From Liolophura sinensis (lineage: Eukaryota; Mollusca; Polyplacophora; Chitonida; Chitonidae): a DNA stretch of 64,000 bases. The stretch covers positions 13,881,608 through 13,945,607 of the forward strand of contig NC_088299.1 in assembly GCF_032854445.1 (NCBI RefSeq). The letters are read 5' to 3'. Shown here one piece after another: positions 13,301 to 51,200 of the stretch. A program made the position numbers and the translations under genes. The notes under the pieces were generated by a model. It was not told the DNA's origin. It searched no databases and worked only from the letters and a program-made list of their open reading frames with translations. Each line of letters starts with the position of its first letter. Positions within the stretch are counted from its first letter, which is position 1.

Positions 13301-16300
13301 TATTTCACCTAGATTTTAGCATTTTCAAATGTCACATTTTACTTGATTCCCATAGATTCATTCACCTTATAGTGTCACATAAAAGTTTATTGTGAAGTTT
13401 GATATAGTGTAAATGTTACATGTACATGTAGCTTCAAAAGTGTCATTTGAGGACATTTTTGTTGTTTTTAAAGTGCATTTTTAATTACAAACTAAACATT
13501 ACAAATGCAAGTTAATACAGTCCATGTATACCAGTAGCCTAGCAAAGAAATACCTGTTCATCTGTCAGTTTGTATGAAAGAATTAAAGGACCTGAAAATA
13601 AATTTACATACATCTTCAGGATACACACCAAAAGCCATTCAAAAGAACCTGTATCAAAGCTCATTCATCAGCCAGCCAGTAGCTGTGGTGAACGGTGTAC
13701 AGGATAAGATTGAGAGTGACAGCTTTCTGTAACAGACGGAAATATTTCACCACTGACAACAGGGTGTTGTGCCAGCATAGAGAAAGGATATTCACAGATG
13801 AAAGGGTTTTAAAAAATACCATGTATATCTGACACGTTATTGTGTGAAATACCATTTTTGTGGCTGCTCGTCATTGAAACAGTACTGATAGCATTCATGC
13901 TATAAACTAAACATTTCTATACCTACATGTAACATTAAGTTACATGAAAGCAAGTAAGTGTATGTAAATCTAAATATCCTGTCAGCAGCCTTTATATTCA
14001 ACCTGGCAGATAGATTAAATAATGGTTTTAGTTTGATACACCCAAATGTCTATTAAGTGTATGAACACTCACTTGATGTCTCTGTCTCTTCATTGTAAAA
14101 TTTAATCATGCCGACCACTCTTAAGCCATTTGCATGCTGGGTAGATTAAAATATATGCTGACTATGCATGAGGTTTACATGTACATCAAATACATGGTAT
14201 ATAAAGTATTAGGGTGTTTTTAAGATTTGGGCAGTTCATTTGTAGAGCAAAATTATCATGGTTGAGTGCACAGAAAATTTGTGTTTGAACATCATGATCA
14301 AAATATCATGATTGCACGTAAAATGACCTACATTAACTAAAGTTTAATATGAATTCCCTGGATTTAATAACTTTTAATACTTGCCTGAGACATATGACAT
14401 TGATTTATTTTATTTATTTGATTGGTGTTTTATGCCGTATTCAAGAGAATTTCACTTACACAACAGCGGCCAGTCTTTATGATGGGAGGAAACCGGGCAG
14501 AGCCTGGGGGAAACCCACGGCCATCCGCAGGTTGCTGGCAGACCTTCCCACATACAGCCGGACAGGAAGGCAGCATGAGCTTGACTTCAACTCACAGCGA
14601 CCACATTGGTGACACATGACATTGAATACAAAGAGAGAATCATAGATAGCTCATAATTGTGGATATACCTCAGTGTATGTTTACAAGAATTGTACCATTC
14701 CAAACAAAGATTTTTGCCAGATAAACAACTAAAAGTTTAATTCTGCAAGGGATATATGAATAAATGCAAAGCTAATTGAATTAAAGTCTTTATAAGTTCC
14801 CCATGACCCCATGTGATATAATCAGGCTGCAGTTGTAAGTTCAATTTTTAATGTGTACCTTTAATTTTCCCCTCAAAGGTGTGGCCTCCATTATCATGGA
14901 GTTGAACTGTTGGGTATGACTTAGAACCACAATAGCTACATTTTATCTGTGATCAAATTTATTTGCCTAATTTGACAATTTCAGGCATACACGCCACATG
15001 CATGCACAGTGCAGTATAGGTGTATTTACGTGTACCTGTGTTTTTGGCTGATATGCACCTGTGTTTTTTTTTTCTGATATCTGTGTGTGTTTTGTGCTGA
15101 TTTGTACATGTGTTTTGTGCTGATATGTACCTGTGTTTTGTGCTGATGTTTACCTGTGTTTTGTTCTGATATGTACCTGCATTTTGTGCTGATATGTATG
15201 TGTGTTTTGTTCTGATGTGTATCTATGTCTTATGCTGATATGTGCATGTGTTTTGTTCTGATATGTACCTTTGTTTTGTGCTGATTTGTGCCTGTGTTTT
15301 GTTCTGATATGTAACTGTGTTTTGTTTTGATGTGAAGCTGTGTTTTGTACAGATATGAACCTGTGTTTTGTGCTGATGTGAACCTGTGTTTTTTGCTTAT
15401 ATACATGTATACTTGTGTTTTGTGCTGATGTGTACCTGTGTTTTGTGCAGATATGTATCTGTGTTTTGTGCTGATATGTACCTGTGCCTTGTTCTGATAT
15501 GTAACTGTGTTTTGTTATTATATTTAACTGTGTTTTGTTTTGATGTGAAGCTGTGTTTTTTTCAGATATGAACCTGTGTTTTGTGCTGATGTGTACCTGT
15601 GTTTTGTGCAGATATGTACCTGTGTTTTGTGCTGATGTGAACCTCTGTTTTGTGCTGATATGTATCTGTGTTTTGTTTTGGTGTGTATATTGTGCAGATA
15701 TGTGCATGTGTTTTGTGCTGATATGTACCTGTGTTTTGTGCTGACATGTAATTGTGTTTTGTGCTTATATGTACATGTACCTGTGTTTTGTTCTGATGTG
15801 TACCTGTGTTTTGTGTTGATATGTATCTGTGTTTTGTTCAGGTATAAACCTGTGTTTTGTGCTGATGTGAACCTGTGTTTTGTGCTGAAATGTACATGTG
15901 TTTTGTGCTGATGTGTACCTGTGTTTTGCGCAGATATGTATCTGTGTTTTGTTCTGATATGTACCTCAGTGTATTTGACAGGTGTGTGATAATTTGACAG
16001 GTGAAATGTGTTCCTGTGTTTTGAGCTGATGTTTTGGATAGGTGTGTGTTGATGTAACAAGTAAAACGATTGTATGTGTTTTGTGCAGATATATACCTTG
16101 GTGTATTTGACAGGTTTGTGATTATGGAACAGGTGAGATGATATGTACTTGTACCTGTGTTTTGTGCAGATATATACCTTCATGTATTTGATGGGTCTGT
16201 TGATGCAACAGGTGACATGATATGTATACGTACCTACTTTTTGTGCTGATGTATTAATGTGAAATAATGTGTACTTGTGTGTTTGACAGGTGAGTGTTGA

Positions 16301-48200: not shown

Positions 48201-51200
48201 TGGGATGACAAACACGATGAGGAAGAAAGCTCTGGTGGGGAGGTTAGTGATGACATAGATGGCACTGAACCAAAAGTTTCCAGGACAACACACAAAGATT
48301 CTTACCAAAGCTAAGACGTCTGAGATGACAAACACGATGAGGAAGAAAGGTCTGGCTAGTGATGACATGAATGGCACTGAACCAAAAGTTTCCAGGGCAA
48401 CACACAAAGATACTTACCAAAGCTAAGATGTCTGAGATAATAAAAACGATGAGGAAGAATGCTCTGGTGGGGAGGTTAGTGATGACATGGATGGCTCTGA
48501 ACCAAAAGTTTCCAGGACAACACACAAAGATTCTTACCAAAGCTAAGATGTCTGAGATAATAAAAACGATGAGGAAGAATGCTCTGGTGGGGAGGTTAGT
48601 GATGACATGGATGGCTCTGAACCAACAGGTCACCACAACAAATGGAATCAGATTCTGAAACAAGATATAAAGGCCACTTGAAATTGACTACCTGCAATTG
48701 TTTAGTCAATTTAGTGCTTCAGACAAGATCATCAACAATTACATTTTTATTATATAGAACAGTCACCTCAAAGTATAACTTCCATATACAATCTTTTTCT
48801 ACTCTAATTCAGCCAATCATATGACCAATTTCCATTCCAAATATTTACTTTTGTTTTCAAGCATAATCTGCAGGAATGAATCTGTGCACAAAATTTTACC
48901 AAATCAGACATCGTTTGAAGCAATTATTTCACAACACAACCAAATGACGAATCAAGATTAAGGAAACTGTTAAATATTCAAAATTTATCATTGAGTTTCC
49001 CCAGGACTCTGCCCACTTTCCTCCCAACAATAATGCTGGCCTTCGTTGTAAAAGTGAAATATTCTTGAGTACAGCATAAATCACCAATGAAATAAATAAA
49101 TGAGAAATGTATTTAAAACTGATATTCAATTTAAACACTGGATACCTTGAGAGTACTTATTTGTTCGATTAGTGTTTTACAGCATACTCTTAAATGATGA
49201 TGACCAGCATTATGGTGGGAGGATACTATTCCGAGCCTGGGGCAGACTCAAGACCATCCACGTTACTGGCAGACCTTCCCACTCATGGCCAGAGAGGAAG
49301 CCAGGATGAGCTGGACTTGAACTCACAGCAACTGCACAGGTGAGAGGCTCCTAGGTTATTTTGCTGTGCTAGCGCGCTAACCACTAGGCCATAGAGGCCC
49401 GACACCTCAAGGGTACCCCTGAATAATGGATTGATGTGGACATCTTACCTTCCACACCATCAGAGCTCCCATCAGGAATGGATTAAATGTGGTGAGAAAA
49501 CAGTACACTGACGCTGGCTCAAAACTGTTGGAGAACAAATAGAAAGAAGTTCCAATGATACATTAAAGTGTTAAAGTGCATCTAGATTTCAGTTTAAACA
49601 ACTGAAAGTATCCGACAGATAAATACTGATGACAGAGTTTCAGTCTGCTCTCAGCTGATTTTGATAGTTCTATTTACTTAGAGCTTTAGCCAGGCAGCCT
49701 ACATGTATCAATCAACCTGAAGTTGTTTCTTTTCATCTCTGCCTACTACCAAATAATTTAAGTCTTCTAATTTTTAGGACAGATATTAGTATTACTGAAA
49801 GCATAGCATTACATTTTTCTCTCTGTTTTTCGGAAAAGTAAACTTACAAATATGTTGTTCATTAGATGAACTAACCATTTGAAAAAAAAAAAAAAGAACT
49901 CAATATTCTGCTATAATTACATGAATTTTTGGTTAAAAAAGTAGACCAGGTGGGCCAAAAATTAGAAGAACTAGGGTATGGTCTTTAGCATGGCACAAAA
50001 CACCATTTTATTTATAAAGAGTGTTTAACAGAAATATTTCCAACATTCAATCCATTATACACCACTGGGTACATTTAGTGATCTGGTCTACTCCTAAATT
50101 CACTCACCTGTTTATACTTGCAATATTCCCTGTTCCAAAAAAAGCTACTAGAATTAAGAATACCTGAAGCTTGGATAAGGAACACAATTTCTTTAATCTG
50201 TAATTCTTTAATTATCAATTCCACTTCCATTCCCAATTTACATCATCAATTTGATTGGTGTTTTACGCCGTACTCAAGAATATCTCACTGCTGACGGCGG
50301 CCAGCATTATGCTGGAAGGAAACAGGTAGGGCCCGGGGGAAACCCACGACCATCCGCAGGTTGTTGGAAGACCTTCCCACTTATGGCTGAAGAGGAAGCC
50401 AGCACCACCTGGACTTGAACTCACAGTGGCCGCATTGGTGAGAGGCTCCATTATGCTGCGCTAGCGCACTAACCAACTGAGCCATGGAGGCCCCCTCTTT
50501 ACAAATAATGCATGTTAGCGGGGCAGTTTGTTTTAACACTATTATTTAAGATATTCTATTTTCACTTGACATGTCTTATTCGAACATTGTCGTTTTCTCT
50601 TGCTCTTTTTTCTTGTTTACCATTGACAGCCAAACCAATTCATTACCTGTTCCGAGTGTACATTTCATTTCATACTGCTATATGCCTATCCAGTACAAAC
50701 CTTCAATAACTGAGTTAAAGGCATGTACGGCTAAGAAAACTATATAAATATAAAGGATACAAAGAAGTAGGCTCTGCGGAGGTCAGCCCACTCCAGAAGT
50801 CTACGCTCACAAGTGTCTGCTTCATGGAAATCTAACCTGTCCAGCTGAAAAGCACCATAGATAATCAGGTTCAACGGTTTATTTAATAATAGCCATAATT
50901 CTTCAGTCACATGTTTGCAAGGTGTTTATTCAAGCATATTCCAAAGGTAGTATTCTATGATGACTGATAAAACTATACTTTTTGTGAAGTCCTGAAACTG
51001 GTCAATCCAACCAATGTAGTGTAGCCTCCAAAATCAAATTAAAAATGTGCATAAATTGCACTGAAATTTGCTCTTTCAAATGCAAAAAGGTTGAGGAATT
51101 AAGGTAAATGAGCCAAAAAAAATTTAGCCAGAAAAAAAAAGTGCACTTTTCAGAGGCAAATAAATGTCTAAATTTTGGAGCATTTTCCACAAGGGACAAT

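Follow-up and report, generated by a model that had tools for sequence, protein, structure and literature searches.

A 64,000-nucleotide stretch of genomic DNA from the chiton Liolophura sinensis (hereafter the window) contains two adjacent and convergent genes, ATP2C1 for the secretory-pathway Ca2+-ATPase and PIGN for GPI ethanolamine phosphate transferase 1, in which six tandem arrays lie across exon-intron boundaries (Table 1). All six arrays are real: each starts or stops within one of the true exons of these two genes, every unit carries a piece of that exon together with a donor or an acceptor, and the true exon is the terminal copy, namely the 5′-most copy in donor arrays and the 3′-most in acceptor arrays. 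The six arrays are packed into 33 kb. They are probably near-neutral minisatellites of the type called “mirages” in amphioxus, which a minisatellite-rich genome would tolerate since the exon-proximal splice site still works.

Anatomy of the arrays and retention of their splice sites

TRF (Tandem Repeats Finder) rows, the exon models and a reading of the individual copies bear out the first-pass annotation of this DNA, which had described six exon-edge arrays whose unit carries exon plus splice site; its gene names, its exon numbers and the convergence of the two genes are also correct. There are TRF rows for five arrays (16850-20341, 29870-29980, 30227-30618, 34251-34697 and 45521-48625) and for a part (16075-16254) of the degenerate array at ATP2C1 exon 2. 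The copies of the latter lie at 15969, 16029, 16101, 16182 and 16277, with a spacing of 60-95 bp and the true copy from 16353; it was the weakest array of the earlier description and is supported by the annotated N-terminus of ATP2C1 (P0001), which puts the exon 2 acceptor at 16366. A 23-bp minisatellite at 15031-15966, upstream of exon 2, by eye has sequence in common with the intronic portion of the unit at exon 2, which suggests that one array is nested within another.

The copies at exons 2, 17, 18 and 22 were counted by eye. The exon 17 array comprises the true copy, three further copies and one more degenerate copy. True exon 22 of ATP2C1 occupies 34637-34732, with its acceptor at 34637, and the copy adjoining the true one equals the exon copy (100% over 73 bp). 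The true penultimate exon of PIGN extends from 48654 to 48538 on the minus strand, and its donor is at 48538. Directly beyond the exon 3 array lies a 36-bp microexon of ATP2C1 (exon 4, 20661-20696).

The dinucleotides of the splice sites are retained in most copies. Excluding the true copies, GT is kept in 78/83 intronic copies of the four donor arrays (41/42 at exon 3, 25/25 at PIGN, 11/13 at exon 18 and 1/3 at exon 17), and AG in 9/10 copies of the two acceptor arrays (5/5 at exon 22 and 4/5 at exon 2). The most exon-like copies sit nearest the exon in three of the five arrays tested, in which identity to the exon copy drops with distance (exon 18, rho −0.58, P 0.04; PIGN, rho −0.46, P 0.02; exon 22, rho −0.89, P 0.04); the trend is not significant at exon 3 (rho −0.25, P 0.12, a value that includes one mis-cut unit next to an insert) or at exon 17 (rho −0.80, P 0.20). 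The annotated ATP2C1 and PIGN proteins, which are predicted proteins encoded on this contig, use the exon-proximal sites only and contain no array sequence; the annotated PIGN protein P0241 skips its array.

Tandem arrays are error-prone in assemblies, and the arrays could in principle be artefacts of this kind. This explanation is extremely improbable, because the intronic copies differ from one another (mean pairwise identity 0.87-0.96 in four arrays and 0.64 in the exon 17 array), arrays with diverged copies are found in several genes, and the exon 3 array is broken near 19725-19902 by an insert that by eye resembles a short interspersed nuclear element (SINE). This part of the array must also predate the insertion. 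Sequence resembling the SINE-like insert is also seen near 49020-49110 and 50250-50400.

Table 1. Positions of the arrays, their host genes and the window (numbered from the first letter of the window unless a contig is named)
Feature	Position	Strand	Description	Basis
ATP2C1 exon 2 acceptor array	15969..16395	+	true site at 16366, preceded by 5 degenerate copies of ttgacag|GTGTGCG	
ATP2C1 exon 3, true exon	16828..16917	+	donor after 16917	exon models, annotated protein
ATP2C1 exon 3 donor array	16850..20341	+	75-bp units, 1 true + 42 intronic copies	TRF, copy reading
ATP2C1 exon 17 donor array	29871..30032	+	33-bp units, true donor after 29899, outward decay	
ATP2C1 exon 18 donor array	30230..30618	+	28-bp units, donor of the true copy after 30239, 13 further copies	
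ATP2C1 exon 22 acceptor array	34251..34697	+	73-bp units, 5 upstream copies and the true copy	
PIGN penultimate-exon donor array	45521..48625	-	120-bp units, 1 true + 25 intronic copies	
ATP2C1	10282..36347	+	secretory-pathway Ca2+-ATPase, coding exons 1-24	exon models, annotated protein
PIGN, 3′ part	45081..64000	-	GPI ethanolamine phosphate transferase 1, 21 exons located	Pfam PF04987, annotated P0241
Window	contig C5:13881608-13945607		genome of 609,464,459 bp	

The host was identified through the 906-residue ATP2C1 model: it shares 100% identity with a Liolophura sinensis protein at NCBI, and it matches a solved ATP2C1 structure over residues 2-892. The minus-strand gene was identified as PIGN by its match to Pfam PF04987 and its annotation as P0241, and six further exons of this gene were placed by means of the annotated protein. 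Two PIGN exons used as PDB queries gave no match, and neither did a plasmid search or a text search aimed at the host of the repeat element.

Probable local origin and recurrence in other genes

We infer both the mechanism of duplication and the disregard of the copies by the splicing machinery, as follows. A short local tandem duplication, sometimes perhaps at microhomology, would by chance straddle a splice site and would be tolerated because the duplicate rebuilds the exon end together with its splice site. The array would then grow into the intron through slippage or unequal exchange, and at some loci its exon-side end may still yield fresh copies. Splicing would pick the copy beside the exon body (the 5′-most donor or the 3′-most acceptor), so that the remaining copies leave with the intron and drift. 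This reading takes up the anatomy of the arrays, their exon-like near copies and the decay of splice sites in some of them, as well as the recurrence in other genes described below. The unit of the exon 3 array is local in origin: all 22 exact matches of a word from this unit in the 609-Mb genome lie at its own locus, which indicates that it spread locally.

The role of microhomology is supported in part. The first-pass annotation had based it on short stretches in which the inside of the exon matches the beginning of the intron; these matches are the start of copy 2, so the argument is circular. A comparison of the outer ends of four arrays (exon 17 was uninformative) found 12/16 bases alike at PIGN (background P ~2e-4) and 9/16 at exon 22 (P ~0.01), P values that are generous because the breakpoints were set by eye, and 5/16, equal to background, at exons 18 and 3. 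Judged from these bases, microhomology is supported independently at one array clearly (PIGN) and at a second weakly (exon 22), among the four.

The process had also been suspected to extend beyond ATP2C1 and PIGN, and boundary-spanning arrays were indeed found in four further genes, three in a genome sample and one in a protein family scan. For the sample, contigs C1-C5 were read at fixed positions in twenty-five stretches of 10 kb; one stretch was masked, and the other 240 kb contain 44 minisatellites. GCLC (Pfam GCS, E = 5e-9) has an array of nine CAGGTAAG donors (1+8) placed 127 bp apart; its exon gave no match as a PDB query. A gene resembling NUBP2/Cfd1 (Pfam ParA, E = 9e-20), with 6g2g as its closest PDB chain, has an array of mixed 44- and 34-bp units (L011:3000-4272), in which the donor motif is kept in 9/26 units. 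In this array, a 34-bp spacing variant without the donor is interspersed among 44-bp units that keep it. The third sampled array is a 22-bp acceptor array at an EF-hand-like exon, whose Pfam support is below the cut-off, so that the gene call is probable only. The fourth array came from a scan of the Cpn60/TCP1 family (76 matches), which was selected before any result was seen: one exon of a CCT chaperonin gene has three matched tandem copies behind it at 109-bp intervals, and the DNA there contains 1+6 donors. An automatic exon detector, whose best score on reversed controls was 11.4 versus at least 29 for true arrays, identified 5/6 window arrays and 1/3 accepted sample arrays (GCLC only); the NUBP2-like and EF-hand-like arrays were found by reading the sequence.

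The genome in which these arrays reside is rich in minisatellites, which occupy 25,276 of 230,000 sampled bases, or 11% (a satellite stretch, L023, was left out). A published HiFi chiton assembly of ~609 Mb, named L. japonica, contains 28,010 genes, and its repeat table lists 0.08% simple repeats and similar elements and 14% unclassified repeats (PMC11068029).

Exon edges as possible birthplaces of minisatellites

A competing explanation is that exon edges are preferred birth sites, where something connected with transcription or splicing, for instance R-loops or steps in composition at exon ends, favors tandem duplication. Within the window, one founder unit for each genic minisatellite (n = 13, from a hand-merged TRF list) was dropped at every tolerated position. 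The founder unit spans a splice site in 6/13 genic minisatellites, against 0.93 or 0.99 expected (P = 8e-5 or 1.2e-4), and in 5/12 if exon 2 is omitted (P = 5e-4 or 6e-4); the expectation of 0.99 scales for short PIGN exons that were then unplaced and were later located, none of them touching an array. These values favor preferred edges, although the test is post hoc and its P values are not genome-wide, because the window was picked for its boundary-spanning arrays. The other seven genic minisatellites overlap no mapped exon, the six further PIGN exons included; the contrast drawn earlier with ordinary, exon-free minisatellites holds; no additional arrays were hidden at the PIGN exons located later from the annotated protein.

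When a second copy was sought up to 600 bases into the intron, 5/72 splice sites scored far above controls, and these are five of the arrays, the exon 2 acceptor lying outside this test. Among the other 67 sites no older second copy was clear, and three were marginal, at most 2.2 points above the best control. This scarcity argues against preferred edges, as does the position of the splice site inside the unit, rather than at its ends, in the units read here.

The sampled stretches likewise bear on the question. If each of 28,010 genes is assumed to have 6-10 introns, uniform placement predicts 0.8-1.4 boundary-spanning arrays among the first 39. Three of the 44 arrays, with detection of spanning arrays incomplete, cross a boundary where about one would be expected, which speaks for preferred edges; the corresponding P values, however, are 0.08-0.24 for means of 1.0-1.7, so that no significant excess at exon edges emerges from the sample. 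The unit consensus sequences of the first 39 sampled arrays were not significantly enriched in donor motifs (6 versus 2 in reversed and 3.7 in shuffled sequences, 13% of shuffles reaching 6) or in acceptor motifs (1 versus 0 reversed and 2.6 shuffled). Taken as an explanation of the arrays, preferred birth at exon edges is therefore quite unlikely. It is also tempting to speculate that in this chiton exon edges are favoured birthplaces of minisatellites, where the exon acts as a lasting seed that buds copies intronward and thousands of genes carry runs of competing splice sites, a conjecture that we regard as unlikely.

Coding constraint, possible function and known relatives

Several observations weigh against near-neutral mirages. 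The window excess at exon edges (P ~1e-4) is unaccounted for unless it is due to the selection of the window. By eye, no tandem copies of one exon were seen among the 138 matches listed in a kinase family scan (131/842 candidates scored). The donors of the exon 3 array vary less (3/287 positions) than its exon-derived part (173/2766), a difference tempered by the finding that 5/69 seven-base windows, the donor's own included, are as quiet as the donor. Second codon positions are the least variable in the PIGN copies (2/29 columns versus 20/59, P 0.008), and 0/25 of these copies contain a stop, where about six would be expected if each copy had mutated separately and uniformly. However, the PIGN copies are not independent, and 22 independent changes give no stop with a probability of 0.46; because the copies share ancestry, a constrained exon that was copied again and again suffices to explain them. 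In the same kinase scan, five kinase-domain matches at G000:C5:13465676-13476590 lie on one strand at ~2.6-kb spacing and resemble tandem gene copies.

In the exon 3 array, coding constraint on the copies was considered and rejected: variation is highest at first codon positions, with no third-position bias, and in-frame stops occur in 4/42 copies, where about seven (range 3-12) are expected under uniform mutation. The situation at PIGN is less clear, since the codon pattern is ambiguous and the copies may conceivably be translated.

The arrays might alternatively be functional, as decoy or poison sites that control splicing or as in-frame exon extensions that are used occasionally. The lack of stops and the quiet second codon positions at PIGN are consistent with such a role, as are the donors, which still resemble the consensus in the majority of copies at exon 3 and PIGN. 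The units of exon 3, exon 17 and PIGN (75, 33 and 120 bp) are divisible by three, but the remaining units are not (28, 73, 22, 44/34, 127 and 109 bp), and 3/9, with the irregular exon 2 array left out, is the level of chance. Furthermore, read-through reaches a stop after 45 residues at exon 3 and 136 at PIGN, most exon 17 and NUBP2-like copies have lost their sites, and the annotated proteins contain none of this sequence. A functional role is therefore very improbable.

Near-neutral mirages have a precedent, and the first-pass annotation, which knew of no such described class, was wrong on this point. In amphioxus, “mirage” minisatellites span exon-intron boundaries in Adh3, the globins BflGb6 and BflGb9, troponin C and PGBD5 (PMC3087553, PMC3902484); PGBD5 and troponin C were added as mirage genes in the second report, where the mRNA is said to be undisturbed (PMC3902484). 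As in these reports, the units of the six chiton arrays span the boundary at donor or acceptor edges, many of them keep AG/GT, and the true boundary lies at one end of the cluster. By contrast, the chiton arrays occur in a mollusc, reach 43 copies at exon 3 and are clustered in two adjacent genes; in addition, amphioxus mirages are reported to be harmless to normal splicing, whereas the chiton arrays are known from the genome and predicted proteins. We class them with the amphioxus mirages, in a new host, because the anatomy agrees and the difference lies in the host, a cephalochordate in the reported cases. Among the matches listed in a full-text literature search, judged by title and the start of the abstract, such arrays appear only in these two reports, and an earlier report from a mollusc may exist, since most subscription papers lie outside that search.

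Two other systems are related more loosely. Intron gain by tandem genomic duplication likewise duplicates exon sequence that contains splice signals (PMC4974935); by contrast, the chiton arrays lie inside introns whose annotated splicing uses the original site, and they point to no new intron. Ordinary intronic minisatellites share with the chiton arrays their tandem units, diverging copies and local expansion, whereas those of the window (for example 28825-29545, 51336-52093 and 61238-62510) overlap no mapped exon.

The mirage phenomenon, found in the searched literature only from amphioxus, thus reaches a distant phylum, and may be common there. Provided that all three sampled arrays hold and that the stretches represent the genome, three arrays per 240 kb scale to ~7,600 genome-wide (95% range 1,600-22,000). 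Each array is a natural experiment in splice-site choice, in which one true donor is set against up to 42 near-identical competitors, and these arrays constitute raw material for intron gain.

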